DNA of 64,000 bases, taken from the NCBI GenBank assembly GCA_948144175.1, contig CANXME010000812.1, positions 992,001-1,056,000 of the forward strand, read 5' to 3'. Below are positions 1-63,800 of this stretch, piece after piece. The DNA comes from Closterium sp. NIES-65 (lineage: Eukaryota; Streptophyta; Zygnematophyceae; Desmidiales; Closteriaceae). The notes below the pieces were generated by a model. That model was not told the DNA's origin and did no database searches. It saw nothing but the letters and a program-made list of their open reading frames with translations. The translations under genes were made by a program, and so were the position numbers. Every line of letters starts with the position of its first letter. Positions within the stretch are counted from its first letter, which is position 1.

Positions 1-3000
1 GGAGGAGGCGGAGGTGGAGGAGGCAGCGGAGGCGGGGGCGGCGGTGGCGGTGGTGGAGCGGGTCGCGACTCTGCGCAGAGGAGTGGCTCAGGTGGTGGCC
101 CGCGCCCGCAGCAGCGGAGTGGTGTGACCCTGTCCCCTCAGCAGCTTCGTGAGTGGTACACTGCGCGTCAGCGCGGTGGGGGTTTTGGTCCCTGCACTTA
201 CGTCCTCCGTACCCGCGACCGAGCACGTGAGCAGTGCGGGGGCCCGCACTCCACCCAGCGCTGCTTTGGTCGCCTGACAGACGCGTGGCGTCGCCAGTTC
301 CCTGAGGCGTCAGAGATCCCTCGCTGGGGAGATCTGTCTAGGGCGGAGGTTGCCGTCTTTGATCTTGACTATGATGCTATCCTTGCTGCCATGTATTCTG
401 TGACTACTAGTGTTGAGGGTGACTGTTACCTGTGTGTACCGCCTGACCCGGGCATCGAGGCCACTGCTCTAGGAGCTGGTGAGGCTGCTGCTCTAGGTGC
501 TAGTGCGTCTGCTGCCCCAGGTGCCAGTGCGTCTGCTGCCGCAGGTGCCAGTGCGTCTGCTGCCCCAGGTGCTGGTGAGTCTGCTCTCTCAGGTACTACG
601 TCGGCTCAGGCCTTCTACACCTTCACCCTTGACTCGGGTGCGTCCCGCTCCTTCTTTCGAGACCGCACCACTCTTACGCTGCTCAATCGGCCGGTTGCAG
701 TCTCCCTGGCAGACCCCTCTGGGGGTCCTGTCCTTGCTAGCTTCTCCACTGTCTTACCGTGCCCGGCAGCCCCCTCTGGCACCCTGTCAGGTCTCTACCT
801 CCCCTCGCTCTCTACGAACTTGGTGAGTGGAGCGGACCTACAGGATAGGGGGGTTGACCAGTTCACTCCTACGAGTCAGTGAGTGACCCACTGCACGTGT
901 GCTCGGACAGGCCGACACTTGGCCACGTTCACCCGTCGGCCAGGGTCGAGCCTGTACACCCTTACTACTGAGTCTCCTCCGGCCTCTGAGTTTGGCCAGG
1001 TAGCTGCGTCGAGTCAGGTGTTTGCTGCAGCGTCCAGGTCTGGTCCTGAGTCTGCTCCCTGCTCGTGTCGTCTCCTGTCCCACCAGACTCTCCTCTAGCA
1101 CCACCGCCTTGGTCACCCCTCCCTGCCTCGTCTCCGAGGCATGGCCTTCCATGTCCTTGTCTCTGGTCTCCCTCGGCCTCTCCCTCCCCTACCTCCGGGG
1201 CCTGGCCCTACCTGCGTCCCCTGCGTCGAGGGGCGACAGCGCGCCGCCCCTCACTCCTCCGAATTTCCTCCGACAGAGGCTCCGCTACAGACCCTCCACA
1301 TGGACGTGTGGGGCCCGGCCCGCGTCAGTGGACAGGGGCACGAGCGTTACTTCCTGTTGGTGGTTGACGACTACTCGCGTTACACCACGGTCTTCCCCTT
1401 GCGCAGCAAGGGTGACGTCACTCAGGTGTTGATCGACTCGATCCGCGCAGCTCGTCTCTAGCTCAGAGAGAGTTTCGGCTCGGACTTTCCTGTTCTACGT
1501 CTGCACTCGGACAGAGGCGGGGAGTTTTCCTCTGCCCGTCTGGGAGCCTTCTGTCGTGCACAGGGCATCCGCCAGACCTTCACGCTTCCGGCCTCTCCAC
1601 AGCAAAATGGGATTGCTGAGCGCCGCATTGGCATGGTCATGGACGTCGCTCGTACGTCCATGATGCATGGGGCTGCCCCCCATTTTTTGTGGCCGTTTGT
1701 GGTTCAGTACGCCGCGCATCAGCTCAACCTTCAGCCCCGGGTTTCCTTGCCAGAGACCTCCCCCCCCTTGCGGTGGACTGGGAAGGTTGGAGATGCGTCT
1801 GCGTTTCGGGTCTGGGGATCTCGGGCGTTTGTCCGCGACTTGTCTGCGGACAAGCTGTCCCCCCGTGCTGTTCCCTGCGTCTTCCTTGGCTTCCCCCCTG
1901 ACGCACCTGGGTGGCAGTTTTACCACCCCACCTCGCGCCGTGTTCTGTCCTCCCAGGACGTCACCTTTGACGAGTCGGTGCCTTACTACCGTCTCTTCCC
2001 CTACCGCGCTGCGCCCCTCCCCCCGCCGCCGCTCTTCCTTGCACAAGGTCCTCCCCCGGTAGACCCCCTCCCCCTGCAGGGTCCTGGCCCGTCAGGTGTG
2101 TCCCAGGTAGACGCAGTCGAGCCTGTCGAGGTAGCTGTTGACTTTGGTGCTGCTAGAGGTGCTGAGCCTTCGGTTGCCGGGTCTGGGGGTGCTGAGACTA
2201 GGGGTGCTGACCCTGGGGGTGCGGAGTCTGGGGCTGCTGAGTGTGGGGGTGCTAAGCCTGGGGGTGCTAGGTCTGGGGGTGCGGAGCCTGGGGGTGCGGA
2301 GCCTGGAGGTGCGGAGCCTGGGGGTGCCAAGCCTGGGGGCGCTGGGTCTGCTCGTGTGGCCGCCGGCGGTGCTTCGTCGAGGCGGGAGCCACTCTCTCCA
2401 CAGGAGCTGCGCGAGTGGTTTGCCCGCCGCTAGAGACGTGCTGCTGAGATTGGGGGTGCTGCTGGGGCTACTGGAGTTGGTCCTGCTGGAGCTGGAGCTC
2501 CTGGGGGTGTTGGCGCTGGTGTTTCTACTGGCGCTGGTGCATCTGGGGGTGCTGCTGAGGCTGATGGAGCTGACGGTCCTACTGGAGCTGGTGCTACTGG
2601 AGCTGGAGCTGCTGGGGGTGTTGGCGCTGGCGGTGCTGCTGGTGCTGGTGCTTCTGAGGGTGCTGGAGTTGGCGCTGTTGGAGCTGGAGGTGCTGCTGGC
2701 GCTGGTACTGCCGCTTGGGGTACTGGTGCCGTCCTTGCTGGCTCTAGAGGCGCTGAGCGGCCGAGGCCGTACTTCGTTCCGCTCCTGGAGCAGGTTCTTG
2801 GTCTCCCTCCCTCTCCTGGTCCTGCTCCTTCCTTAGAGTGTCCACAGGCCGTCCACTCGCAGTCACAGTTACAGCCCGCCTCCCCACTACCTGCTCCTTC
2901 TCCCTACACTGGTCCTACTGGAGGTCTTGCTGAGCGTCGTGCGCCCGCGTCTCGTCCTGCGTCGCCTGTTCGTGCTGCTCGCACTAGTGGTCGTACTGCG

Positions 3001-5350
3001 CGTCCGCGTCCTCCTGCGGTCCACGGCACACACCAGATGGCGCTGCGTCCTTCCACTGCTCCCCTGCGTGTCCCGTTGCCGTCTCCTCCAGAGTCCTCTC
3101 TTCCTACTCTTGCTGACCCGGAGTCTGACTCCCTTCGTGCTGCTAGTCCTTCGGTCACGCGTCTCCTTGCTATAGTTGTCACTGACCCTTCCTTTGAGTC
3201 CACTGCTGCGTCTGCCCTAGTTGATGAGCTTGTCGACTTCGCTGCTCGCTGTCGTCTAGACTACGCTGCCAGTCTCGTTGCTGAGTCTGAGTCTGTCTGT
3301 CCTCCGTCCGTCGGGGGTGAGTTTGCTCTTAGCACGGACGTCCTTGAGGACAGGCAGGAGGAGTTCCAGTGCTTTGCTGCTGCTTTGCCCCATCTTGTGT
3401 CCACGCTGATTGCCCCTGAGGGAGACCCGGATGCACCAGACATCCCGACTCCTCGATCGTACGCTGAGGCGATCGAGGGTCCCTACTCCTCTCAGTGGCA
3501 GTCAGCCATGGACGCAGAGATGGCTTCCTGGAAGTCCACAGGCACCTACGTCGACGAGGTTCCCCCACCGGGGGCGAACATTGTCAGTGGCATGTGGATT
3601 TTGAGGGTGAAGCGGCCTCCGGGTTCTCCGCGTGTCTTCAAGGCGCGGTACGTGGCTCGAGGCTTCAGTCAGCGGCAAGGAGTTGACTACTTCCAGACCT
3701 TCTCTCCCAACCCGAAGATGACCACTCTTCGGGTGCTGCTGCACATAGCCGCTCAGCGCGACTACGAGCTTCACTCTCTCGACTTCAGCACAGCTTTCCT
3801 GCAGGGCAGCCTTCATGAGGAGATCTGGGTGCGCCGCCCACCTGGCTTCACTGGGTCGTTTCCTCCTGGTACCCAATGGAGCCTCCGGCGGCCAGTCTAC
3901 GGTCTCCGCCAGGCGCCCCGTGAGTGGCACGACACACTGAGGACTACACTTGCGGCTCTTGGGTTTGCTCCTTCTACAGCCGACCCATCGCTGTTTCTGC
4001 GCACAGATACCTCTTTGCCGCCGTTCTACATCCTCGTGTACGTCGACGACTTGGTCTTTGCCACTGCTGACACTGCTGGACTCGCCCACGTGAAGTCCAA
4101 GCTACAGAAGAGACACACGTGCACAGACCTGGGTGAACTGCGCAGCTACCTTGGCTTGCAGATCACCCGGGACAGAGCACAGCGCACCATTACTCTGACT
4201 CAGTCACACATGGTGCAGCAGGTCCTTTAGCGCTTCGACTTCACGTACTCCTCGCCTCAGGCCACTCCTCTGTCTACTCGCCACTCGCTCTCGGCTCTTC
4301 CTTCGGACGAGTCCGTAGAGCCGAGTGGCCCGTACCCAGAGCTTGTTGGCTGCCTCGTGTACCTGATGACCTGCACACGACCTGACCTTGCATACCCTCT
4401 TAGCATCTTAGCACGCTATGTTGCTCCTGGGAGACACCGACCAGAGCACATGGCTGCAGCGAAGAGGGTGTTGCGCTACGTGTGCAGTACCTCGGGCATG
4501 GGGCTAGTGCTTGGAGGGCGACGTCGAGTGGTCCTCACAGGTCACGCTGACGCTTCTTGGGCTGACGACCAGGCTCTGCAGCGGTCGTCACAGGGTTACA
4601 CCTTCAGCCTTGGCTCCGGCTCTGTTTCGTGGCGGTCTACCCGCTCGTCTTCTGTTCTCAGCTCCAGCTGTGAGGCTGAGATCTACGCAGGGGCCATGGC
4701 TGCATAGGAGCTACGCTGGCTCACCTACCTACTGACTGGCCTAGGAGAGTCGCCTCGTTCTCCTCCAATTCTGTACGTAGACAACAAGGCCATGCTGGCC
4801 TTGTGTCGGGAGCACAGACTGGAGCACAGAACGAAGCACATTGCTCTCCGCTACTTCCTGGCTCGTGAGCTGCAGCACCGTGGTGAGCTCCGCCTCACCT
4901 ACGTGGCCTCTGAGGCCAACACTGCTGATATCTTCACCAAGGCCCTTCCGCCTTGTGATCATCAGCGCTTCTGTACTTTGCTAGGTCTTGTGCCTACTTG
5001 GCCTCACTTGCTCACTTCTTGATCTTGTTTGTACTGTACTCTGTCTATACCTGCACTTGCTTGTTTACCTTTATAGATGATCTTACATGTGAACTGGCCT
5101 TGTGACCTTGCTCTTGTGCTCGGACTGTGTGGTGACTTTGTGATCCACCCTGAGCTTGCTTTGCTTTGCTTGACTGGTCTTGCGACCACTTGTTCTCCCC
5201 CACTTTGCCTATGGGGGTGTGTCAGAACATTATAGCTTATACATCTGTGTAGGCTGTAGTGGGGTAGCCCATAAGGGGTACACTCCAATTAGGGTTAGTA
5301 CTTGTACCCAACTGTTTCATAGTTCAATCATTCTCTCGTTCTAAACTTCA
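1..5350 (+). mobile_element. Copia A: Ty1/copia LTR retrotransposon, cut by window edge
   Basis: Fossil Ty1/copia element that enters the window inside the glycine-rich tract of gag. Parts in order: a Cys/His motif of gag (about 193-264, C-X13-C-X3-H-X4-C), aspartic protease around 615-850 (DSGA), integrase about 1090-1700 (HHCC zinc region, D,D,E core with the SPQQNG motif), an Ala/Gly/Glu/Pro repeat linker about 2150-2340, reverse transcriptase about 3440-4110 (YVDD), RNase H about 4510-4990, purine tract 5211-5219 and 3' LTR 5220-5350. The order protease-integrase-RT-RNase H defines copia. It is broken, with several interruptions of the reading frame. It abuts gypsy-2a, into which it appears to be inserted. 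Copies B, C, D and D' are close relatives. Confidence 0.93.
5220..5350 (+). repeat. 3' LTR of copia A
   Basis: It begins TGTCAGAACATTATAGC directly after the purine tract ATGGGGGTG and ends in CA near 5350-5352. It matches the 5' LTR of copia D at 35369-35495, including the core GTGGGGTAGCCCATAAGGGG, so A and D are one subfamily. The right flank is the reverse transcriptase region of a minus-strand gypsy. Confidence 0.85.
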
Positions 5351-49523: not shown

Positions 49524-52500
49524 ATGGAGCACAACACGGGTCTAGTGGCGGGCAGCCACAACCGGAACCACCTAGTCGTTATCCGGAAGGATTCCCAAGT
49601 GGTAATTCATCCATCCGTTCCACTTTACTAGTTTCTCTGGGGTCGACTGGAATTTATAACTCCTGAGTTCGCGGCTGTCGAAAGGATCGTTACCGATTTA
49701 CGAATCGTCACAGAACGGAGACTAGCAATTGTTACCGCACTTTGCACGCATTCCTCGTCAATAATATTCTTACGTGCAATTATCCACATCCTCTCGGATT
49801 CTCTCTTTATTCTGCTGCTGATTGTATGTCCTCTCCGCAGCCGCTGAACCAAGTGCTTTTTGTCATTGGCCCCACATTCCTAACGACCTTACTGTATTTC
49901 TGTTGCTATTTCTACATTTGTTGATCCGCAGTCGCACAACCCGACGTTTAATCCGATCATCTGCCAAATCTGTGGCGACGACGTGGGCCAGTTCGTAGAG
50001 GGCGGCATCTTCGTGGCGTGCCACGAGTGCGCGTACCCCGTGTGCCGCCCCTGCTACGACTACGAGCGCAAGGAGGGCAGCCGCGCGTGCCCGCAGTGCA
50101 AGACGTTCTACAAGCGATATAAGGGTATGTGCTACTAGCGAGTCAATGCGAGCATGTGCCCGGAGCGCAGACGTGTCGTGTGAACGACGTAGTATTGCTC
50201 GCACTTCTACCTTTTTCTTACCGTGCAGCTTTCGCACCGGAAGCCCATACATTCACGACGACAGCTTGCGTTTCGCCTCTAACATAGAAGCCTCTATTCA
50301 CACGCGATTTCCCCACAGGGAGCCCGCGCATTGACGAAGATGACGACGACGAGGACGACGATGAGGAGAGGAGCGACCGCGGAGGCGACAGGGGCGGCGC
50401 ATCGCTGGACGTCCCTACGACGTCGTACGCGTCGTACGTGTCACACAACGCGCAGGCGTCGTCGCAGTATCCGATGCTGACGTCCAACCAGGTCAACCCG
50501 GATCAGTCCGTCGCAACGGAGTACAACCCCGGCGCTATGGTGCCGGCCGGTACGATTCCGCCGCCCTCGGATTACAACAAGTACGAGCGTACGCCTAGCC
50601 GTGCGCCCAGCCAGACACCGAGCGCCAACGACATGGCCAGTAAGTTGACGCCGAAACGCTAATGGCATACATATGGCCTTTGAAAACCAAGAAATATAGA
50701 TTCTAGCAACTGCTACCTTCGTAAACTCTCTGCTATCGCTTTCATCTAATCATATGTACTTCCGCGTCTGTCTGCAGTGGAGCTCCGTGCCCCCAGCTAC
50801 GGGTACGGCAGCGTTGTCTGGAAGGATCGCGTGGAGTCGTGGAAGCAGCAGCAGGGTCGCATGGTAGTCGGCGACGGCAACGGAGCAGAGGAAGTTTCCG
50901 CAGGCGCCACTGCGGAAGGCGATCTCCCGTCCATGGACGAATCCCGTCAGCCTCTGTCGCGCAAGGTTCACTATCCGTCATCTCTCATCAGTCCGTACCG
51001 TCTGGTTATCGTGATTCGGCTGGCGGTTCTCGTTTTCTTCCTTCGCTGGCGGTGCCTGAATCCCGTCGACGGGGCGTGGTGGCTGTGGCTGATTTCGGTT
51101 ATCTGCGAGGTCTGGTTCGCGTTTTCGTGGATTCTCGATCAGTTCCCGAAGTGGATGCCAATCAAGCGAGAGACGTATCTGGACCGTCTGTCGCTGCGTT
51201 TCGATCGGAAGGGCGAGCCTTCGCAGCTGGCGGCCGTAGATCTTTTCGTGTCGACGGTGGATCCGCAGAAGGAGCCCCCGCTCACCACGGCGAACACGCT
51301 TCTCTCCATCCTGTCCGTTGATTATCCCGTCGACAAAGTTTCGGCTTACGTGCACGACGATGGTGGCGCGATGCTGACTTTCGACGCGATGGGCGAAACG
51401 GCGGAATTCGCGAGGCGCTGGGTTCCATTCGCGAAGAGATACAGCATCGAGCCGCGGGCACCCGAAGTGTACTTCACGCAGAAAGTTGACTACCTCAAGG
51501 ACAAGGTTGACCAGGATTTCGTCAAGGATCGTCGCCAAATGAAGGTGCGTTTCGGTTCGGGTGACAACCATTCTCGAAATTAATTTAGCACGAGACGCGC
51601 CTCAGAATATTCTATGTTGTCCCTTTTTTCTCTCGAAATTGAATGCGCACCTCTACGCAGATAGTCATCGAATTTCCCACTTCCCCGGGTCTCTGATTCT
51701 GTTTCCTGGTACCCATCCCTCCTGCTACAGAGGGACTACGAGGAGTTCAAGATCCGCATCAACTCTCTCGTCGCGCGCTCGCACAAGATGCCTGAGGACG
51801 GCTGGGTGATGCAGGACGGCACGCCGTGGCCCGGCAGCAAATCCCGCGACCATCCCGGCATGATCCAGGTTTTCCTCGGCCCCAGCGGCGGAACCGACGT
51901 GGATGGTAACCCGCTTCCGCGACTGGTGTACGTGTCTCGCGAGAAGCGCCCGGGTTACAACCACCACAAGAAGGCCGGTGCTATGAACTCGCTGATTCGC
52001 GTGTCGGCGATTCTGTCCAACGCGCCGTACATGCTGAATCTGGATTGCGATCATTACCTCAACGACAGCAAGGCGCTGCGCGAGGCCATGTGCTTCATGA
52101 TGGACCCGAACGTGGGCAAGAAGTGCTGCTACGTGCAGTTCCCGCAGCGATTCGACGGCATTGACCCCAACGATCGTTACGCCAACCACAACACCGTCTT
52201 CTTCGATGTAAGCCTCTTCCCATCCTCTCCATAAGCTTCTTCGTTTCACTTTCCATTTATGCCCGTCCGTTTTCTCCGTTGCACTACCAGCTGTGGCATT
52301 GGCTTGCGGTGCTGACTGCTGCTAACCCTCTCGTTCATCCTGATTCTCACTCCAACAGATCAACTTGCCAGGGCTCGACGGTATTCAGGGCCCATGCTAC
52401 GTGGGTACCGGTTGCTGCTTCCGTCGCCACGCGCTGTACGGCTACGAGCCGCCCAAGAAGGAGAAGAAGGCGCGGTGCGGCGGGCTCATGTGCTCGTGCT

Positions 52501-54007
52501 TCAGCTGCTGCGCGGGCGACCGCGGGAAGGAGGGCGGAGGCAAGCGCAAGAAGCTTCCGGACGGCACGCCGCTGCCCGCCGGCGCTGAGGCCTTCCTGGG
52601 AGACGACGATGGTGAGTTGACTCGTGGATTCGTTGCCTGTAATATTGAATCTGGTTTGAGAATAGGAGAAGTTGCCTCGCACTCCTCCCCTCCCCTTGCC
52701 AGTCATAATTTTCTCCTCTTCGTGTTCTCTGTTCTGTTCCACAGTTGAAGGCGACAGCCTGTTGGCGCTCAAGAAGTTTGAGAAGAAGTTCGGCCAGTCG
52801 CCCGTCTTCGTGCTCTCTACGTTCCACGAGGAGGGCGGCGGCGTGGCTTCTGCCAGTCCCGGGTCCACTCTTAAGGAGGCCATCCACGTCATCTCGTGCG
52901 GCTACGAGGAGAAGACGGAGTGGGGCAAGGAGGTATGCCTCGTCCCCATCCATACCATCTCGTTCGTTGCCCTTTTCTATTGTGTCCAGTGTCCATGTCT
53001 CATGCTATCTTTTCTCTGCACCCGTACCAACATGTTTTCTTCCCTCCACCCTCGTTCCCTCTCCCTTACAGCTTGGCTGGATCTACGGGTCGGTCACTGA
53101 GGATATTCTGACGGGCTTTAAGATGCACGCACGCGGCTGGCGCTCCATCTACTGCAAGCCGAAGCGCGCCACCTTCAAGGGAGGAGCGCCTATTAATCTG
53201 TCCGACCGTCTGCAGCAAGTGCTTCGGTGGGCGCTTGGGTCAGTGGAGATCTTCCTGTCCCGCCATTGCCCCATCTGGTACGGCTGGAAGGGCAACCGCC
53301 TCAAGATGCTTCAGCGGCTCTCTTACATCAACACCGTCGTTTACCCGTTCACGTCCTTCCCGCTGCTCATGTACTGCATGCTGCCCGCCATCTGCCTGCT
53401 GACCAACAAGTTCATCATCCCGTACCTGGATACAGTTTCCACGCTCTACTTCATCGCGCTTTTCCTCAGCATCTTTGCAACGGGTCTGCTTGAAATGAGG
53501 TGGTCCAAGGTCAGCATGACCGAGTGGTGGAGAAACGAGCAGTTCTGGGTCATCGGAGGGGTGTCGGCGCATCTTTTCGCTGTTTTCCAGGGCATGCTGA
53601 AAGTGCTAGCTGGTATCGACACCAACTTCACGGTTACAGCTAAGCAGGCGGAGGACGGCGAGTTTGCTGAGCTGTATCTGTTCAAGTGGACGTCGCTGCT
53701 CATCCCTCCTCTCTTCCTCATCATCTTCAACGTCCTCGGGATTGTCGCGGGAGTTGCAGTCGCGATGAATTCCGGAACCGCGGAGTGGGGCGATCTGTTC
53801 GGAAAGCTCTTCTTCGCCTTCTGGGTGATTGTTCACCTTTACCCCTTCATGAAGGGTCTCGGTGGGCGCAACGCCAAGATCCCCACGATCGTGATCGTGT
53901 GGTCGGTGCTGCTCGCCTCCATCTTCTCCCTCCTCTGGGTCAAGATCAGCCCCTTCGCCCCTAAGAGCGAGGGCCCCTCGCTCGAGTCCTGCGGCATCTC
54001 TTGCTAA
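49524..54007 (+). CDS. CesA: Cellulose synthase catalytic subunit, 8 exons, 1070 aa
   Basis: Family 2 glycosyltransferase that makes beta-1,4-glucan from UDP-glucose in plasma-membrane rosettes. Exons: 49524-49601, 49932-50124, 50319-50639, 50778-51544, 51731-52207, 52359-52611, 52745-52932, 53072-54007. All introns are GT-AG, phases agree, and the total is 3213 nt. The start is set by the plant-type N-terminus [10 protein letters not shown]. Domains: RING zinc finger 37-82 (four CX2C pairs), acidic variable region about 92-110, helices 1-2 about 272-318, first Asp in DDGG 391-394, P-CR about 410-520, DCD 558-560, class-specific region about 645-696 with a cysteine cluster CSCFSCC, TED 768-770, QVLRW 808-812, then six C-terminal helices and FTVTAK. 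All catalytic motifs are present and the length is normal for plant CesA. It looks functional. Introns are short (133-330 bp). Confidence 0.97.
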
Positions 54008-54244
54008 GTGTTGGTCATCTGCAGTGGCGCTTCCCCCAAGCGAGTTCCCTCACTCCACGATTTAGAATAGAGTCAGCAACAGCAGCAACAGAGGTAGCAA
54101 GAACAAGGTTGTGGTTCTCATAGCTTTTGTTAGGGATGTTGGTTTTGAGGGATGCTATTTAGGCCTAGAGAGATGTACTTATGCTGTTTTCTTTGGTGAT
54201 TGCCTTTCAAGTCCTTGTATTGCTATGCAAGCAAAACAATCATT
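54008..54244 (+). other. CesA 3' untranslated region (inferred)
   Basis: AT-richer stretch after the CesA stop codon (TAA 54005-54007) with a CAGCAACAGCAGCAACAG run at about 54072-54089. There is no clear AATAAA. It ends where the inverted CesA first-exon copy begins. Confidence 0.5.
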
Positions 54245-54306
54245 TTGTTCTGTCCGTTACCCAGAACTAGGTGGCTGTCCGCCACAAGGCCCCTGTTGTG
54301 CTACAC
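54245..54306 (-). pseudogene. Decayed inverted copy of CesA exon 1
   Basis: The minus strand matches CesA exon 1 and its leader: AGGAAGCGCCCCCTG, GAGCTGGGAGGCCGCT, then a start-codon equivalent that is GTG (54306-54304) followed by TAG where CesA has ATG GAG, then AGCACAACA and GTGGCGG-CAGCCAC. It lacks about 10 bp present in exon 1, and similarity fades near 54245. No later exon follows. It is a truncated pseudogene of the host's own CesA, lying about 240 bp beyond the CesA stop on the opposite strand. Confidence 0.8.
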
Positions 54307-54765
54307 AGCGGCCTCCCAGCTCAAGAGGGCAGGGGGCGCTTCCTGTCTATCACTCTTGGAAATACTCAACTCGACTGATCCAAAATCGAAAGAACTACAA
54401 CCACTGTGGGGTTTCACTGGCTTCGAGAGGATGGAGTGGTTTGGCTGGGGAAGGCGAAGAGGAAGCAGATTGAATCAAATCGAATGGAGAAAATAGAGAT
54501 GCGACTCGGGACAGCGAAAGCGCAGTTGAGCTGCATCACAGGTAAAACGCGTCGGGGCTGGGCTGTCGCTATACGACCCATTCGACGCGCGAATATTGAA
54601 CAATCAATGGGTGTGCGCCATAACAACTCTGATTGGTCTGTGACTTTGTAAACTTGACGAAGGCGTATCGCAGCCCTCTCTTATTGAATAGACGGGCTCG
54701 AGGGGGCGGTGCCCCTGAGCTATGCGCCTATTCTCGATTCAATCACAGAGCCCTTCGAGAAAATG
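54307..54765 (-). promoter_or_regulatory. Inverted copy of the CesA promoter, pointing into CesA
   Basis: The reverse complement of this stretch aligns with CesA upstream DNA (48705-49523) in order: TGTGATTGAATC, GCGATACGCC, AAGTCACAGACCAATCAGAG, ATGGCGCACACCCATTG, GTCGAATGGGTCG, GCCCCGACGCG, CTGTCCCGAGTCGCATCTCT, GATTCAATCTGCTTCCTCTT, CCACTCCATCC, GTGGTTGTAG and AGAGTGATAGACAGGAAGCG. Best blocks look about 85-95% identical by eye. It lacks two stretches of the CesA promoter (about 180 and 200 bp). If active it would transcribe leftward, antisense to CesA. Confidence 0.8.
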
Positions 54766-55122
54766 ACAAACCAAACCATTTACATCTATCTTACAAGAGT
54801 ACAGCGCTCAAGATGCGGTATAGTCTGTTGATAATTATTTTGCCAGCTACATCCTCTACTGATTGTACGTGTTTAAGTGTGGTTCAAAACTTTAGAGCTG
54901 ACATACATCATACTACCACCATCAACGTTAGGGGCAAAGTCATTGCAACAATATACCTGAGAAAAAAATGTAGATACATATGTGCACATTAGCTATATGA
55001 GTGTGAAACAGCTGAAATTTAGCTGCTGTCTTCTTGTCAAGCAGAGACCGCTCCAAGGTCTACATGATATTGTGCTGCACAGCACATAACCCCCTCATAT
55101 TCCACAGTACCTTCATCCTCCC
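54766..55122. other. Intergenic stretch between two convergent genes
   Basis: About 360 bp of balanced composition between the inverted CesA promoter copy and the stop codon of the minus-strand gene. It probably includes the 3' untranslated region of that gene. I see no RNA gene or further reading frame. Confidence 0.5.
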
Positions 55123-58100
55123 TCAGTCATATGTCTGCCTCAATTGCATCTCAGTCTCACTCTTCCATGTGGCATGCGATGATTGGCCCTTCATTCGCTT
55201 CGATTTCTCCTTGTCCTTGACTTTACTGTCCCCTTCCCGCCTTTTTGATTTCTCTCTGCCCGCTGCCACGTCAGCGTCCCCTGCTGGCCTATCGCGGCAA
55301 ATCGGGCAGACCACACCCTGCCCCGAGGAAGGAGTTTTAGGAACCTGACAGGTCGGGCAGATCCTGCAGTGTTTGGGGCGTTCGGGCAGAGTGAGAAAGG
55401 GGAAAAGGGAGAGGTGTGGGTGAAGTTATTACTAAAACAAAAACAAGACTAAATGAAGTCAAAACTGGGACTAGATGATAAAACTTGAAAAAACTGCCCA
55501 GCTCGACCACCAAGCCAGTTTGAGACGTCTCAAAACTAATGAAGTCAAAATCTGGGAATATACAATTGTAAACAAGACTTAAATCAAGTCAACAGTAAAA
55601 CTTGAGAACAACTGCCCAGCTCGACCACCAAGCCCACCTTTTCTCCCTCCCCCCACCCCCCATCCCCCTTCCCCCTACTCTCCCCTTCACTTACCCATTG
55701 TTACCCATTTTTTTTGTCCAAAAAATCACCCACCCCAACAACACCTTTCTGCACCTCTTTCCACCTTTCAACCCCAGACCGGAACATTACTTTCCTCACC
55801 TCCCCCCCAACCCTACCCGCAAGAGGCGATCCACAGCATCGGCTTCAGAAGGCATTTACACCTCCCTCCATACACCTTGCACCACTCTGCACCTCTACCC
55901 ACCTGAGGAGATCCACAGCATCGGCTTCAGAAGGCAAGGACCCATACTTACCTCCCTGCAACCACTACCCATTTGCACCACTCTGCACCTCTACCCACCT
56001 GAGGAGATCCACAGCATCGGCCTCAAAAGGCAAGGAACCATACTTACCTCCCTGCAACCAGCCCTTACGCACCTCCCTGCACCTCTCTGCACCTCTCTGC
56101 ACCTCTCTGCACCTCTCTGCACTTCTCTGCACCTCTTCCTCCCGACTAAACCGTTTCATATTCATTATTCCCCGTATCCCACCCACCTGAGTAAATCCAC
56201 TGCATCTGCTTTAGGTGGCATTGAAACGCCCACTGCCTTTCTGCCACGTGTCGCATCCCCATTTGCTGCGTTGGAGCCTTCTGCTCCCTCTTCCCCCCCT
56301 TCCACAGCAGCAGGTTCAGCAGCAGGGGCGTTAGGGTTTCTCACAGGTGCTGCTACAATCTCCCGTGCTGGAAGGGGGGAGATTACAGGGAAGGGAGGCA
56401 AGGGAATGGGTGAATGAAGGGACATTATATTTTGCACTGCAGCAGCGGCAGCAGCAGGGGCGTTAGGATTTCTCACAGGTGCTGTTACGATCTCCCGTAC
56501 TGGAAGGGGTTACGGGGCAGAGATAGAAGAGGTGAAGGGAAGGGGCGGTATGTTTTTCCAAAGCAGCAGCAGCAGCAGGTTCAGCAGCAGGGGCGTTCTG
56601 GTTTCTCACAGGTGCTGCTACGATCTCCCGTACTGGAAGGGGGAGGGGGAGGCAAGGGAATGGGTAAATGGAGGGACAGATTATATCTTGCACGGCAGCA
56701 GCTGCAGCAGCAGGGTCAGCAGCAGCAACAGCAGCAGCCGCAGGGGCGTTTGGGATTCTTACAGAAACCCCGGAAAGAGGGAGATAACAGGTGGGAGGGG
56801 GCAAGGGAATGGATTAATAGAGGGTCATATGTATTAAGACCCAGCACTGCAGTAGCAGCAGCAGCAGCAGCAGCAGGGGAGTTTCGGTTTCTCACAAGTG
56901 CTGCTACGATCTCCCGTACTGGAAAAGGGGCGAAGGGGGGGAGAGGGCAGGAGCAGAAGAGGGAGCAAGCAGGAGGCAGAGGAGATGGGCTAAAGAGCGT
57001 TTCCACTGCAGCAGGGTTAGCAGCTGCAGCAGCGGCAGCAGCATTGTGCAGCTGCAGCCGCGACAGCAGCGGCAGCAGCATTGTGCTGTACCGATCAAGG
57101 CGTGATTGGTTCGCCCATCCGCCGAAACTAGTTTACGCAAGGAGGCTTTTCGGAAGCTAAGGGTTTTTCCAGATCTGCATTTTTCACACTCGTTTTTTAA
57201 CTGTTGATCCTTTGCTTAAGCGTCTTTACAACTACTGCAGCCCTTCAAGTATGAGTCAAGGTGACCCTTGAGATGGGCTAAAGAGCGTTTCCACTGCAGC
57301 AGGGTTAGTAGCAGCTGCAGCAGGGTTAGCAGCTGCAGCAGCGGCAGCAGCAGGGGCAGCAGGCGCAGGTGCAGTGACAGCGTGTGGAAGGGGCGCTGAA
57401 AGATCCAGGGAATGAAGGTTCGGGTTCTGAAGGAGGCGACTCAAAAGTCGTCTCATGTCTCGCGGTTTTTATATGGCGCGCTGGAAGATTCAGGGAATGA
57501 AGGTTCGGGTTCAGCAGAATCTAGAAAACTCACCCCCACCACCAACCCCCTAAGACCCCCTCTCTCGGTACACCACCGTCGCAGGAGCAGGAGGCAAGAG
57601 ATATAAGGTGCTCTTAGAGATTCAAGCCTGAAGGTTCGGGTTCAATACAAGTTCAAAGACTCACCCCCTGCCTGCCTGTCTCGGTACACCACCACTGCAG
57701 AAGCAGCCGCAGCCACCCCTAAGAAGCGGTGGAGAAGAGTGTCTCTTCGCAGCCACCCGAGAAGCGGTGGAGAAGAGTGTCTCTTCGCAGCCACCCCTGA
57801 GAAGCGGTTGAGAAGAGTGTCTCTTCGCAGCCACCCCTGAGAAGCGGTTGAGAAGAGTGTCTCTTCGCAGCCACCCCTGAGAAGCGGTTGAGAAGATTGT
57901 CTTCGCAGCCACCCCTGAGAAGCGGTTGAGAAGAGTGTCTCTTCGCAGCCACCCCCACAACAGACACACTGAGAAGAGGATAGTGCACGGCCACTCTGTC
58001 TCACTCACCCCAACCCCCACACCACCCACTCACCCCCACCACCAACGCCTCCTGCTCGTCTTTCTCGGTACACCACCGCTGCAGGAGCAGCCGCAGTCAC

Positions 58101-60415
58101 CCCCACAACAGACACACTGAGAAGCGGATAGTACACGGCCACTCTGTCTCACTCACCCCAACCCCCACACCACCCACTCACCCCCACCACCGACTCCCCC
58201 AGCCCGCCTCTCTCGGTACACCACCCACCGCTGCAGGAGGCCTGTGGTGTGAAGGTGTGCGGTGTGGTGTGGAGGGTTCTAAGTGTGATCTTTAAACTCA
58301 CCCCCACCACCGACTCCCCCAGCCCGCCTCTCTCGGTACACCACCGCTGCAGGAGCAGCTGCAGGCGCCCCCGCGACAGTCACGATGCCACGTGGCGCCT
58401 CCTCATTGGCCGATCCCATGGCAACGAGCTTCCCGGCGCGGGCTATATGCATGTGGTGGGATAGGGCCGTGGGGGCGAGGAAGGATGGCGGCCCCCCTAC
58501 CTGAGGGAATGCATCAGAGGGGGGAGGTCAAGGGAGGGGGGAAAGGAAACAGTTATCGGTTTGCTAGTGCGGGCTATACGCATGTGGTGGGATAGATAGG
58601 GCCGGTGGGACAAGGAAGGACGGTTGGTCTTCCTACCTGAGGGAATGACACTGACAGGGAGGGAGGGAGTGGAGGGTGGGGAAGGGGAAATGAGGGAAGC
58701 GAGGGAGGCAGCAACGAGCTTGCCGGTGCGGGCTACATGCATGTGGTGGGATAGGGCCGTTGGGGTGAGGAAGGACGGTGGTCCTCCAACCTGAGGGAGA
58801 GATAAAGACAAGGAGGGAGAGGAGAGGAGTGGAAATGAGGGAAGAGAGGGAGTGGCAATGTGGAAATGAGCTTGCCGGTGCGGGGTATGTGCAGGTGGTG
58901 GGATAGGGTCGTTGGGGCAAGGAAGGACGGTGGTTCCTCCACCCAAGAGGAGGACAAACAGGGGGTGAATAAGTTTGGCAGTGCGAGCTATATGCATGTG
59001 GTGGGATAGGGCCGTTGGGGTGAGGAAGGACGGTGGTCCCTCCACCTGTAAAATAACTAAGACAGGGAGGGAAGGAGAGGAGGGCAGGGGATTGAGGGAA
59101 GAGAGGGAGTGGCAACGAGCTATGTGCATGTGGTGGGATATGGCAGTGGCTGCGAGGAAATTCGGTAGCCCCTCCAAATGGGAAATGCTTTTGAGTCGAC
59201 TCAAAAGTCGCTATGTGCATGTGGTGGGATAGGGCAGTGGCTGCCTGCGAGGAAGGACGGTAGTCCTTCTTTATGGGAAATAGCACAGACAAGGAGGGAG
59301 AGGACAAGGGGTAGGGAAGTGAGGGAGGAGACGGCACTCTTCATACCCTAGCTTTCATTTAGGTGAGTTTTGAGGTGCCTCAAAACTCACCTCAAGGCAG
59401 GGAAGTGAGGGAGGAGGGCGCACTCTTCATACCCTAGCTTTCCCCCACCTCACCCCACCTTCTGCTTCCAATACCCACCCCGCTTGCTCTCCCTGTCCCT
59501 CATCACCTCCGCACCTTTACCGCAGCACCGGCCTAGAAGCACGAGTTACCGCTTCGAACCAAACCGTAATCCCGTGTGTCCTTTACCACTCCTCTCACCC
59601 ATTCACTACCCCCTCCTCCTCCTTCCCAACCCTAATTTCCTCTACCCTCTTCCATCCCTCCCTCCCACCCCTTCCTCCTCTCCTCCACGCCATTGCCACA
59701 GCACCGGAATAGAAGCTCCAGTCACCACTTAGAAGCTCCTCTCCTCCACTTCCATTCCACTCACCCATTCGCTACCCCGTCCTCTCCCCCCCCCCCCCCA
59801 CCCCCCCTTCTATCCAGAATTTCCCGGTCCTTCTTCCCTCCCTCAACCCCAACCCCTCCTCCTCTCCTCCACACCAATTGCCGCCGCACCGGAATAGAAG
59901 TGCACCGCTTCGAACCGGACCGTAATCCCGAGGGTCCTTTCCCGTACCTCTCCCTCACTCGGTATAACCTCTTCCCCCCCTCTACTAACCCTAAATTTCC
60001 CTCCCCTCTTCCCTCCCTCCCATCGCCCGTCCTCCTCTCCTCTATTCCATTGCCGCAGCACCGGCCTAGAAGTACCACGCACCGCTTCGAACGCCGCTGC
60101 AGCGGACGGCAATCCCGAGGGTCCTTTCTCCGGCAAAAACCCAGCAGCCGTTCGTCTCACGCCGCCTATTCTACCGGCCGCCAGCGCTCCTCCGTCATTC
60201 CTACCGGCCGTCGCCGCTCCTCCCGCGTTTTCCTTCCCGCCACTATTTTCTCCGTTCCGCGAAGCGTCTTCTGCCTCCACATCCTCCGCATCTTCCGCGT
60301 CTTCGGAATCGCTGCCTGATGAATCCGACGAATTGTCTCCTTGCTCGAAAGCAGCGCTCTTTAAACGCGCTTCGTCCTCGTCTGAATCGTAGCTCTGAAC
60401 GAGCTGAAGGCTCAT
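55123..60415 (-). CDS. Conserved protein of unknown function, C-terminal zinc motif, 4 exons, 317 aa
   Basis: Exons on the minus strand: 60415-60083, 58500-58302, 56367-56187, 55363-55123. All introns are GT-AG (GTGCGT, GTGAGT, GTGGGT donors), phases match, and 954 nt give 317 aa. Seen: acidic serine-rich N-terminus (YDSDEDEA at 9-16, D/E/S run to about 55), Ala/Gly region, LPSAAAAFEAV-GGPPSFL across the exon 1/2 junction (102-119), Ala/Pro/Gly linkers, ADAVDLLR (231-238), C240-X2-C243-X13-C257-X2-C260, a Lys-rich tail and the ending KGQSSHATWKSETEM. From memory, uncharacterised land-plant proteins share this PPSFL motif, Cys pairs and KGQSSHATWKSETE tail; this is unchecked. The function is unknown. 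Introns of 1582, 1934 and 823 bp hold arrays copying the exon edges. A gypsy LTR lies 68 bp upstream. Confidence 0.8.
55480..55645 (-). repeat. Duplicate inside intron 3 of the 317-aa gene
   Basis: Two copies of AACTGCCCAGCTCGACCACC at about 55493 and 55609, each preceded by AAACTTGA and related AAGACT/AAATGAAGTCAA words. Period about 116 bp. The copied sequence is intronic, not an exon edge. Confidence 0.7.
55820..56225 (-). repeat. Array of exon 3 3'-edge copies in intron 3 of the 317-aa gene
   Basis: The true exon 3 end (56187, minus GCAGATGCAGTGGATTTACTCAG then GTGGGT) has three related copies to its left at about 55996-56035, 55899-55940 and 55825-55855. Each reads SEADAVD-type codons on the minus strand (GAAGCCGATGCTGTGGATC). 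The copies at 55.90 and 56.00 kb keep CTCAG|GTGGGT as a donor. Spacing is about 80-190 bp. Confidence 0.78.
56322..56935 (-). repeat. Array of exon 3 5'-edge copies in intron 2 of the 317-aa gene
   Basis: The true exon 3 start (56367, minus CTTCCAG then CACGGGAGATTGTAGCAGC) is repeated to its right at about 56473-56510, 56606-56645, 56755-56780 (poor) and 56893-56930. Each is followed by codons for VRN-NAPAA and a GCTGCTGCT run. Three copies keep CTTCCAG or TTTTCCAG followed by TACGGGAGATCGTAGCAGCA, a plausible acceptor in the same phase. Period about 130-150 bp. Confidence 0.82.
56985..57365 (-). repeat. Two copies of a GCAGCAGGGTTAG-rich block in intron 2
   Basis: GGGCTAAAGAGCGTTTCCAC followed by TGCAGCAGGGTTAGCAGCTG-like sequence occurs at about 56987 and 57272. 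The CAG/GCAGC-rich tail resembles the sequence downstream of the exon 3 5'-edge copies. Confidence 0.65.
57525..58395 (-). repeat. Array of exon 2 3'-edge copies in intron 2 of the 317-aa gene
   Basis: The true exon 2 end (58302) is preceded on the minus strand by GCAGCGGTGGTGTACCGAGA (AAVVYRE codons) and followed by the donor GTGAGT. Copies of this edge lie at about 58176-58250, 58025-58110, 57653-57715 and 57528-57595. All four keep GTGAGT directly after the Gly/Pro-coding stretch. Spacing about 120-370 bp. A further 150-bp duplication (57968-58030 versus 58118-58180) accompanies the two nearest copies. Confidence 0.82.
57717..57958 (-). repeat. 40-bp tandem repeat in intron 2
   Basis: About six units of GAAGCGGTTGAGAAGAGTGT + CTCTTCGCAGCCACCCCTGA with a constant 40-bp period and few differences. 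Its regularity suggests recent expansion. It is not an exon edge and not a CRISPR array (eukaryotic intron, no spacers). Confidence 0.88.
58430..59285 (-). repeat. Array of exon 2 5'-edge copies in intron 1 of the 317-aa gene
   Basis: The true exon 2 start (58500: CCCTCAG then GTAGGGGGGCCGCC, coding VGGPPSFLAPTALSHHMHIA) is followed to the right by six related units centred on GTGGTGGGATAG at about 58583, 58742, 58892, 58995, 59132 and 59219. Spacing is 90-160 bp. Units at 58.79 and 59.05 kb keep both a pyrimidine-AG acceptor and open VxGPPSFLTPTA codons in phase. One keeps the AG but is out of phase, and three have lost a clear AG or are diverged. Confidence 0.85.
59510..60135 (-). repeat. 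Array of exon 1 3'-edge copies in intron 1 of the 317-aa gene
   Basis: The true exon 1 end (60083: minus TTCGAAGCG then GTGCGTGG) and its surroundings CTTCTAGGCCGGTGCTGCGG recur at about 59880-59945, 59690-59740 (poor) and 59518-59590. Two copies keep TTCGAAGCG|GTGCAC or TTCGAAGCG|GTAACT. Spacing about 180 bp. The stretch between copies is polypyrimidine-rich on the plus strand. Confidence 0.8.
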
Positions 60416-60483
60416 GGCAGCGAAAATCCTAGTAACTACTACAAACGTCGCTGGTTCTTGCTGCGTATAAGAATGTTTCCCCC
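60416..60483 (-). promoter_or_regulatory. Short leader between a gypsy LTR and the 317-aa gene
   Basis: Only 68 bp separate the ATG at 60415-60413 from the outer end of the gypsy-2b 3' LTR. Whatever native promoter existed was displaced beyond the element. The reading frame stays open from the ATG back into the LTR, so no stop separates them. Confidence 0.55.
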
Positions 60484-60821
60484 TGTTACGTGTGCAATTG
60501 AGTGAAGGAACGAGAATTGCACTATCGAAGCAAAAGTACAATGAGCGAAGGCATGAGCGAAGGATTATATAGCGAAACAATAGTGGTAACGGTACTGTGG
60601 TTGTCGCGCGTCGAGCCTGGGACTGAGGTTGGGAAAGTGTCGAAGCGTAGGCCCGGAGCGCGGGTTACCAGCCGAGCCGTGAGGTCGGGATGCGATGTGC
60701 GAAAAAAGGCGGGATGATGAATGATGCGATGGTCGCGAGTGGTAACGGTGCTGACTGAGGTGCTACAGTGACGTACGCGCTGGGCAGGGACGCGAAGTAA
60801 GGAAAAGGGAATTTCCTTACA
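60484..60821 (-). repeat. 3' LTR of gypsy-2b
   Basis: 338 bp. On the minus strand TGTAAGGAAATTCCC...CACGTAACA, preceded by the tract GGGGAGGGGGGTAG. The start is nearly palindromic (GTAAGGAAAAGGGAATTTCCTTAC, plus 60797-60820). Homologous to 7882-8207. Confidence 0.88.
60565..60571 (-). promoter_or_regulatory. TATA-like box in the gypsy-2b 3' LTR
   Basis: The minus strand reads CGCTATATAATCC here. The gypsy-2a LTR has CATATAAAT at the matching place, so the box is conserved between copies. It lies about 150 bp upstream of the start codon of the 317-aa gene, in the same orientation, so an LTR-initiated transcript could enter that gene. Confidence 0.55.
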
Positions 60822-63800
60822 CTACCCCCCTCCCCAAGGAGGCCCCTCTTACGAGAGCGCATGGACGTCGCGGAAATTTCGGCTTCGCAGATACTCGGTG
60901 AAGACAGGGTGGTTCTCAATTTTATCCAGGGGGACCCAGTTGTCTTCTGTTGGCGTTCGGTCCTTCCAGCGAATTAGGAACTCGATCCTTCGGGCTCCCC
61001 GAGGGTCGCGGACGCGGTGGCTGAGGATTTTTTCAGGGGTGATGAGTGGTTCGGTTGGGGGACGTGTCATGCTGGCTGGGCGATTTCGTGGCAGTTGGCT
61101 CGTGGATGGGATGTAAGGGCGAAGTAGGCTGACGTGGAATGACGGGCTGACGTACCAGTCAGCGGGGAGGAGGAGGTGGGCGGTGACGGGTGTGATCATG
61201 TGGCTGATGCGAAATGGCCCACAATATCGGGGGCGAAGTTTTGGAGTGATGGGCAGGCGAAGGTTCTGAGTGTCGAGTAAAACGAGGTCGTCGGGCTGAT
61301 AAGTAACGGGTCTGCGATGTCGATCGGCGTTGCGTTTAGCGATGATGTTTGATTTTTTTATTGCTTCTGCTGCCCTGGTCCGTGCTGCTTGCAGGATCTC
61401 GGCGAACTGTTGTGCTCGTGGGACGGGGTTGTCGGGATTCGGTGTCATGGGTACTGTTGGGTCCTGTCCGTAATTTAGATAAAACGGCGACTGTTGCGTC
61501 GTGGCTGATGGTGCGTTATTGTATGCGAACTCAATGAGTGGCAGTTGCTGTTCCCACGTATTCGGGTCGTCGCACGTGGCTCGAATCAGCTGCTCCATGG
61601 TCTGATTTGTCCGTTCCGTCTGTCCGTCGGTTTCGGGGTGATAGGATGAACTGAACTGTAGGCGCGTGCCGAACTGCTGCCACAGGTTCCGCCAGAAGTT
61701 GCTGGTGAATTTCGTGTCCCTGTCGCTGATGATCGACGCGGGTATCCCGTGCAGGCGTACGACGGTGGAGATGAATAGTCGGGCGGTTTCCTCGGCTGTG
61801 ATGGATTTCCTGCATGCTGCGAAATGAGCCATTTTCGTTAGTCGATCGACGACGACCAGGATCGCGTCATTCCCACTCGCCCCAGCTGGTAACCCCGTGA
61901 CGAAGTCCATCGTCACCTGCTGCCAAGCACGCTCTGGAGGCGGGATGGGTTGTAATTGCCCTGCTGGTCGCTTCCTGCTTGTCTTCATGAGCTGGCAAGT
62001 GGGACACGATGCCACGTGTCGTTGCACGTCAGTCAACATTTCTGGCCAGTAGTAGTACCGCTGCAGCTGCTGTCGTGTTTTTTCTACCCCGAAATGTCCC
62101 GAGGTAACTCCGTCGTGTGCTTCCTGTAACAGTAGTTCCCGAAGTAACGTGTATCCCGGTACCCAGATGCGGTCGGTTCCAGTTTTTACGTAATAGACTC
62201 CTTTTGCCGCTGCGAATTGCTGTGAGTTGCCTCCTGTAAAGAACGGGTCTGTTTGATATCCGTGGGTAAATAGGCCGGTAAGCAGTGGGCTGGTCTGGGC
62301 GAGTAGTATCGCGTGGATCTGGGCAGTGGGGCGGGTCAGTGCGTCGGCGATATTCGATGCTCCTTTTTTGTATGTGACCGTATAGTGAAAATTCGACTCG
62401 AGGAAATCGAGCCATCGAATCTATCGTGGGTTGAGGTGGGGCTGTGCGCGGAGGTACTGTAGAGATCGGTGGTCTGTCCGTACTGTCACGTCTGCGCCAG
62501 TCAAGTAGCAGCGCCAAACTTTGAATGCATGCACGATCGCGAGCATTTCGCGGTCGTGTATCGGATAATTTCGCTCAGGCGGATGTAGTTTTCGTGATTC
62601 GTAGGCGATGGGTTGGAGGCCGTTGCCGAAGTCCTGTAACAGTACAGCTCCGATGGCGATGTCACTTGCGTCGGTAACCACTTCGAAAGGGCGGTGGGGA
62701 TCAGCGATGCGTAGGACGGGTGGTGAGCAGAGAACGTTTTTTAGGGCAGAGAAGGCAGCATGCTCTTTCTCCCCCCACGTAAAAGCGACCCCCTTACGCA
62801 GTAAATCAGTTAGTGGGGCGGTTAAACGTGCCATGTCGGGCACGAACCGTCGAACGTAATTAACAAACCCTAAAAAACTCTGCAGTTCCGTGATGTTCGT
62901 CGGGGGGCGCCACGCTTTTACCGTGTCCAGCTTCTTTGGGTCAATCTCAACCCCAGCCTCTGAAATGACGTGACCTAAAAACTCTAGCCTATCCCTAAAA
63001 AACTCGCACTTGGAGCCCTTGGTGAGCAGCCGATGTTCCTCTAAAACCTTAAAAACTGCTTCAAGATCTGCTAAGTGTTGCTGCTTATCCCGACTGTAAA
63101 CGAGGATATCGTCTAGGTAAACGATGACGCATTTATCTAAAAGTGGCCTAAATGCCTCGTTCATGGTCATCTGAAAAGTCGCAGGCGCGTTCGTCAACCC
63201 GAAGGGCATTACTGTATACTCGAATGACCCGTACCGAGTCCTAAATGCTGTTTTTGCGCAGTCCGATGGTTCGACGCGAATCTGATGGTAACCTCCTCGT
63301 AAATCTATTTTCGAAAAGACACGTGCTGTTCGCAGTTGGTCAATCAGTTCGTCGGCGCGGGGGATGGGGTATCGCGATTTGACTGTTACTCGGTTAAGCG
63401 CTCGGTAGTCGATGCACATGCGAAAACCTCCGTCTTTTTTCGGTGTGAACAGTATGGGTGCGGCGAACGGTGACGAGCTCGGTCGAATAAACTGCTTCTC
63501 TAACAGGTAATCTAACTGCTTCCTTAACTCGTTGAGCTCGGGCTGTGTCAGTCGAAATTGCCGCTGTACTGTTGGCTGTGCCCCCGGTTCTAGCTCGATC
63601 CTATGGTCGTGCGCTCGCTGAGGTGGCAGTCCCTGTGGTAAATCATCCGGAAATATCCCCGGGAACCGTTTCAGTAGTGCTTGTAATTCGGTCGGTACGG
63701 CTGCTAGTAGTTTCTGTAAATCGTTCTGCTGCTCGTCTTTTTCTACCACTGCGATATCCACTGCGTACACGTCAGCTCCAGCAGCGACAGCCCGTTTCAT

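Follow-up and report, generated by a model that had tools for sequence, protein, structure and literature searches.

How do the introns of a single gene come to be filled with copies of that gene's own exon edges? The question is raised by a 64,000-nucleotide stretch of the streptophyte alga Closterium sp. NIES-65 (contig CANXME010000812.1, positions 992,001 to 1,056,000; the window). The gene lies on the minus strand, has 4 exons, and encodes a 317-amino-acid (aa) AT5G64160-like product. At five of its six exon-intron borders, the exon edge recurs in tandem within the adjoining intron. These arrays are probably of the type called mirages in amphioxus, which would arise when ordinary tandem duplication crosses an exon-intron border and the intronic copies are then amplified and decay. 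The exon boundaries were predicted from alignment to orthologs (FEA/VxGPP and LLR/ICPTC), codon phase, and GT/AG, where a slash marks the junction here and below. The resulting model reproduces the 317-aa gene of a preliminary description of this DNA and has the following exons.

60083..60415, minus strand: exon 1, with donor GCG/GTGCGT
58302..58500, minus strand: exon 2, CTCAG/GTAGGG to GGGG/GTGAGT
56187..56367, minus strand: exon 3, TTCCAG/CACGGG to CTCAG/GTGGGT
55123..55363, minus strand: exon 4 and stop, with acceptor TGCAG/GATCTG

Introns 1 to 3 are 1582, 1934, and 823 bp long. The mean intron length reported for four genomes of the Closterium complex is 485-554 bp (PMC10407611). The top protein matches, obtained with an early 324-aa gene model as the query, are from Closterium (Naga37s-1, Yama58-4, NIES-68, and NIES-64). 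These are followed by many land-plant proteins, one of which carries a name like AT5G64160 (among the best 120 of 263 matches). A Pfam scan of a first, incomplete 308-aa model gave no match, Rfam at gathering cut-offs gave 0 matches in 54000-61500, and no relative was found in IMG/VR and GTDB contigs scanned with the 317-aa protein.

Each edge (60 exon and 60 intron nucleotides) was locally aligned to the rest of its own intron and compared with 200 dinucleotide shuffles per edge. The copies identified, and two further repeats in the same introns, are as follows.

59498..59941, minus strand: 3 exon 1 donor copies (59853-59941, 59669-59734, 59498-59559), GT kept in 3/3
58572..59260, minus strand: 6 exon 2 acceptor copies (58572-58685, 58731-58798, 58883-58933, 58987-59048, 59119-59159, 59210-59260), AG kept in 3/6
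57526..58239, minus strand: 4 exon 2 donor copies (58176-58239, 58028-58091, 57664-57707, 57526-57590), GT kept in 4/4
56440..56933, minus strand: 4 exon 3 acceptor copies (56440-56509, 56573-56678, 56729-56828, 56859-56933), AG kept in 3/4
55829..56021, minus strand: 3 exon 3 donor copies (55993-56021, 55897-55936, 55829-55856), GT kept in 2/3
57708..57955, minus strand: 40-bp tandem array between exon 2 donor copies
55441..55634, minus strand: tandem duplication inside intron 3, close to the exon 4 acceptor but clear of the exon edge

The exon 4 acceptor has 0 extra copies in intron 3 by the same alignment against shuffles, and the duplication near it (55441-55516 / 55570-55634) ends ~78 nt before exon 4. 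All of these counts, the absence at exon 4 included, are the numbers given in the preliminary description. That description had staked its claim on alignment above chance, and the copies do exceed all dinucleotide shuffles: they score 31-152, the top shuffle scores 25-34 depending on the edge, and every copy beats the top shuffle of its own edge. The junction is spanned in the local alignment by 14 of the 20 copies. The other six (58883, 58987, 59119, 59210, 57664, and 55829) match on the exon side only, and their junctions are visible by multiple alignment or motif. Five short hits that are wholly exon-like or intron-like were excluded (59736, 59568, 58097, 57336, and 56708), one of which, 59736, also scored above its shuffles. 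Antisense copies were sought in the same introns, and the best scores were not above the highest shuffle.

The exon parts of the copies are 53-96% identical to the true edge. GT or AG is intact in 15/20 copies (GT in 9/10 donor copies and AG in 6/10 acceptor copies), a share first estimated at about two thirds. The copies do lie only on the intron side, as had been claimed, but this is partly a matter of definition, since the outermost copy is the one called exon. Exon 1 donor junctions are spaced at 177, 180, and 176 bp, and those of another array at 133/132/134/154 bp; some of the acceptor-copy positions behind such values are inexact by a few bases. The repeat arrays, delimited by hand on the self-alignment, fill about 90%, 70%, and 45% of introns 1-3. 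The proposal that junction-spanning pieces were tandemly duplicated and that the introns were enlarged in this way is borne out. Introns 1 and 3 change from a purine-rich donor half to a pyrimidine-rich acceptor half, as they would if the two halves of a single short intron had each been multiplied; in intron 2 this shift is faint and blurred.

A second set of arrays is found in a homeolog. This second intact gene (314 aa) lies on contig C2061 (locus L009), also with a cellulose synthase (CesA) gene nearby. Window positions 54572-57427 and L009 positions 731-3566 are 96.9% identical over 2,877 columns, and the 5' part is much more diverged. The homeolog has copies at the same five edges. The window gene and the homeolog have 3 and 1 clear copies at the exon 1 donor, 6 and 4 at the exon 2 acceptor, and 4 and 5 at the exon 2 donor; they agree at the exon 3 acceptor (4) and the exon 3 donor (3), both within the near-identical part. 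The homeolog count for the exon 3 acceptor leaves out two short hits, by the rule used for the window gene. The exon 2 acceptor array of the homeolog has a period of 117 bp, its intron 1 also passes from a purine-rich donor half to a pyrimidine-rich acceptor half, and several exon 2 acceptor copies of both homeologs part from the exon sequence close to GTTGC. Some exon 2 donor copies have a partner in the other homeolog (c4/P_c5, tree support 100; c1/P_c1, 74; c3/P_c2, 55), and W_c2, P_c3, and P_c4 have none. The homeologs therefore separated when some of the copies already existed, and copies were gained or lost afterwards as well. Annotated proteins of two other strains, Naga37s-1 (P0001) and NIES-64 (P0005), read through the same intronic copies.

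The copies themselves record some of their history. Exon 1 copies c1 and c3 have a common 10-nt deletion that is absent from the exon and its orthologs; therefore, the multiplication of these copies took place within the intron. The exon 3 donor copies have a common sequence unlike the present exon, and TACGGGAGATC, also unlike the present exon, occurs in 3/4 exon 3 acceptor copies. These common states could be changes in a founder copy or old states of the exon. Given the c1/c3 deletion and the states that the present exon lacks, repeated copying straight from the exon is not needed for most copies. At codon 2 of the exon 2 acceptor, the two proximal copies and the exon have GGN (Gly), and the four distal copies have GAR (Glu), the state of Yama58-4 and NIES-68, so the copies of this array are of at least two ages. 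Exon 2 donor copy c1 is a mosaic. Its exon side has the letters of the exon (60/60 aligned, with a 4-nt insertion) and its intron side those of c2 (32/32 near the junction), which points to exchange between units. Differences between exon and copies favour third codon positions (55, 47, and 105 by position), and minimum changes among the copies do not (34, 30, and 43; p=0.30). The exon thus stayed under protein selection, and the copies not detectably. Trees of the copies have low support and settle little.

In the route that we favour, the ancestral introns would have been short, like those of the CesA gene next to the repeat-bearing gene, and tandem duplications of about 80-190 bp would have happened to span an exon-intron border. 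In so short an intron, the duplicated segment would nearly always include one exon edge. Such a duplication would be tolerated because the outermost donor or acceptor, presumably still in use, would yield the old mRNA. Later copies would arise mainly by unequal exchange among units, and the copies would be nearly neutral. A geometric model that uses the observed unit lengths and treats the six arrays as independent gives figures for this step. A tolerated duplication spans one edge in at least 91% of cases when the intron is at most 150 bp; the share falls to 39% at 500 bp and to 15% at 1,500 bp. The probability that at least five of six edges are hit is 0.90 at 150 bp, 0.04 at 500 bp, 0.006 at 800 bp, and 0.0004 at 1,500 bp. 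Growth that started in short introns would explain the five-of-six-edge pattern without targeting.

The neighbouring CesA gene also served as a negative control.

49932..54007, plus strand: CesA gene (range without the first coding part)

It has six well-modelled introns of 133-194 bp and no direct self-repeats at E 1e-6. Fourteen of its edges, two of which flank a first intron with guessed limits, were compared with their own introns, and none came near the scores of the repeat-bearing gene; one donor edge scored 22, above the top of 50 shuffles (18).

The preliminary description had called for a genome-wide scan for introns that copy their own edges. CesA, where none was found, and a set of kinesins were scanned. 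A PF00225 profile search of the genome (874 Mb of assembly) gave 135 matches, from which 16 regions were picked by hand. Edge-spanning copies are present in 7/16 regions (6/8 of a first set and 1/8 of a second) and at ~13/98 edges of matches to the hidden Markov model (HMM); the first eight regions lean to wide spans, so 7/16 is not a random-sample rate. The exon ends used are HMM match ends and are inexact. In these counts, one low-complexity pair was dropped by eye in each of L046 and L050, one repeat-rich L052 edge was left out, and 5/7 flagged L052 pairs were displayed. The copies carry motifs such as ACTCTCAG/GTGAGTG (L046), CTCAG/GTGGGC (L050), CTGCAG/TACCT (L045), and CCAG/GCATCCAC (L052). 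No edge-spanning copies were found in L051, L053, and L055, where all gaps between matches are at most 283 bp, nor in L043, L048, L054, L056, L057, and L058, where some gap exceeds 283 bp. The same pair rule gives 12 pairs in the window gene, 10 in the homeolog, and 0 in CesA. Thirty short kinesin loci (L013-L042, one exon match each, many of them mutual homeologs) yielded 10 flagged loci (L020-L022 and L035-L041). All of them fall in gene groups that the 16 regions already represent, and the CAG-rich pair dropped from L046 is among the pairs flagged in L020-L022.

In the first 8 of the 16 kinesin regions, 8/34 intron-facing edges lie in repeats, compared with 19% of intron points and 12% of exon interior points. 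Kinesin edges are in repeats about as often as intron points; therefore, duplication seems not to be aimed at junctions, and the earlier suggestion that the junction itself is the target is not supported. The same test finds 4/6 edges of the window gene (intron points 76%), 3/6 of the homeolog (55%), and 0/10 of CesA (0%), and therefore misses some edges of the two genes with arrays.

Among the alternatives, the one that survives best regards the copies as functional decoy or alternative splice sites, or as cassette exons, selected to tune the splicing of the gene. We consider this unlikely, but several observations weigh against simple near-neutral decay, and some of them are what selected sites would show. 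The 15/20 retention of GT/AG is above the prediction from flank divergence (P=0.017 or 0.0009 at an assumed retention of 0.49 or 0.38, with the copies non-independent). Copies mismatch one another at 0.35-0.37 within 40 nt on the intron side and at 0.14-0.23 over the first 60 nt of the exon side, so the exon-side parts are less diverged. A neutral array should show no such step at the junction; poor alignment of the low-complexity intron may cause it. Exon 2 donor copy c2 (58028-58091) differs from the true edge by 7 changes over the last 16 codons, all at third positions. Simple decay would not give this pattern, but it would follow if the copy had exchanged sequence with a diverged functional exon or served as an exon itself. 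When the copies of both homeologs are pooled at the two exon 2 edges, their changes number 42/28/47 by codon position (p=0.09), and the copy-copy ratio by pairs, of the nonsynonymous-to-synonymous (dN/dS) kind, is 0.57, below 1 (pairs non-independent). In addition, several copied donors of exons 2 and 3 match or exceed the real ones in U1 pairing (-11.5 vs -10.4 and -13.0 vs -12.5 kcal/mol), and the NIES-64 protein P0005 is annotated with in-frame stretches from such copies.

Against selection for splicing, the codon-position bias among the copies is not significant, the exon frame is interrupted by stops in three copies, a 4-nt insertion is present in one, and GT/AG is lost in 5/20. For exon 1, U1 pairing of the copied donors is weaker than that of the real donor (-4.0 to -5.2 vs -6.1), and the homeologs differ in copy number at three edges. 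The conserved C-terminus is missing from P0005, whose gene model may be incorrect. The NIES-64 annotation was made by EVidenceModeler from Augustus and RNA-based PASA models (PMC10407611), so the P0005 model may or may not rest on RNA. As far as the amphioxus report describes it, reverse transcription polymerase chain reaction (RT-PCR) suggests that mirages leave regular splicing undisturbed (PMC3087553).

A second alternative, which we regard as improbable, makes the exon edge a master that emits copies into the intron by junction-targeted duplication, for example, through R-loops or breaks caused by splicing. It would fit the Gly/Glu split of the exon 2 acceptor copies, in which the proximal copies agree with the exon, and the five affected edges in one gene. 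Release of copies at different times from a master under constraint would likewise produce the divergence step at the junction. The 10-nt deletion common to c1 and c3 speaks against it, kinesin edges are not clearly enriched over intron points, and codon positions among the copies are about even, though this last test is weak. Tandem repeats are hard to assemble, but an assembly artefact is barely credible here, with copies that differ from one another by many substitutions and like copies in the homeologous contig and in annotated proteins of two other strains.

Two further origins were rejected. Insertion of a transposon or introner is ruled out because the copies are exon edges of the gene itself. 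Birth of the exon edges from intron repeats is ruled out for the exon 1/2 and exon 3/4 edges, whose residues are conserved in land plants; at the two edges between exons 2 and 3, the residues are not conserved in land plants, and conservation does not give the direction there. Creation of the introns by duplication of an AGGT segment (the Rogers model), which would make the two ends of an intron resemble each other, is a less likely but possible origin. In a target limited to the intron, the hits of each edge stay in their own half, but an old origin could have decayed.

Though the preliminary description knew of no named mechanism, a named kind exists. Mirages have been described in the amphioxus (lancelet) genes BflGb6, BflGb9, and Adh3; the globin units reported there are 150-160 bp long, many but not all copies keep AG/GT, and unit numbers vary between haplotypes (6 and 3) (PMC3087553). 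By their sequence features, the Closterium arrays fit this kind. They have tandem units that span the exon-intron boundary at five of six edges, of both edge kinds (three donor and two acceptor edges), partial retention of AG/GT (15/20), and unit numbers that vary between gene copies (the homeologs, at three of five edges). They differ in belonging to a streptophyte alga, in affecting five of six edges in one gene, and in being known here from DNA alone. Moreover, the Closterium exon parts are 53-96% identical to the true edge, whereas BflGb6 units are reported as 81-100% identical among themselves (PMC3087553).

Other known systems are alike in part. In the potato RdRp gene, a tandem duplication also crosses an intron-exon border, but the report describes a single event that created a new intron (PMC4974935), whereas the Closterium arrays lengthened introns that were already present, with no sign of a new one. 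Intron gain in Drosophila likewise involves tandem duplication of sequence with splice signals, but there exonic proto-splice sites are described as yielding new introns (PMC2891723). In human segmental duplications, minisatellite expansion at exon-intron boundaries is reported to change intron structure, but the units average about 30 bp and are recent and polymorphic (PMC2812944). Among the titles and abstract openings listed in a literature search with limited terms, none described such copies in Closterium or other algae.

Several other features were observed at the locus. Two near-consensus donors, GAG/GTAAGTAT, lie at 55951 and 56047 in intron 3 repeat units and are not exon-edge copies. 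Palindromes of the form TTTGAG-N4-CTCAAA occur at 55519-55534, 59190-59205, and 59369-59384, with a related hairpin at about 57435-57456. All three palindromes of the window are in the introns of this gene, each between two adjacent repeat copies, and 0.05 are expected (up to one mismatch). Among the exact palindromes, only that of intron 3 was recovered in the homeolog (L009 1678). Such palindromes might represent filler left where duplications join, or else a very small mobile element. Within intron 2, close to a tandem joint, identity between the homeologs falls abruptly from 97% to about 76-86%, a change that resembles the boundary of a conversion or crossover tract. Intron 1 of the homeolog has a perfect 16-bp tandem array of 17.8 copies (L009 gene-strand 4462-4745); Tandem Repeats Finder (TRF) does not list this array in the window gene. 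Elsewhere in the window, 1-48000 and 60849-62420 hold retroelement-like frames with long low-complexity coding repeats, and 4/5 of the scanned frames have Pfam matches (reverse-transcriptase, protease, integrase, or retroviral SH3-like).

The origin of intron length and the choice of the spliceosome among near-identical neighbouring sites are open questions. The introns described here keep a readable record of their own growth, and their many tandem copies are natural tests of splice-site choice. In a wider claim, which we hold tentatively and place just short of an even chance, edge-spanning tandem duplication would be a main genome-wide route of intron growth in Closterium, a large share of its long introns would be fossil junction copies, and the spliceosome would routinely find the outermost site among intact look-alikes. 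Mirages in a relative of the land plants, at five of six edges of this gene and in 7/16 chosen kinesin regions, suggest a general and possibly neutral route of intron growth.
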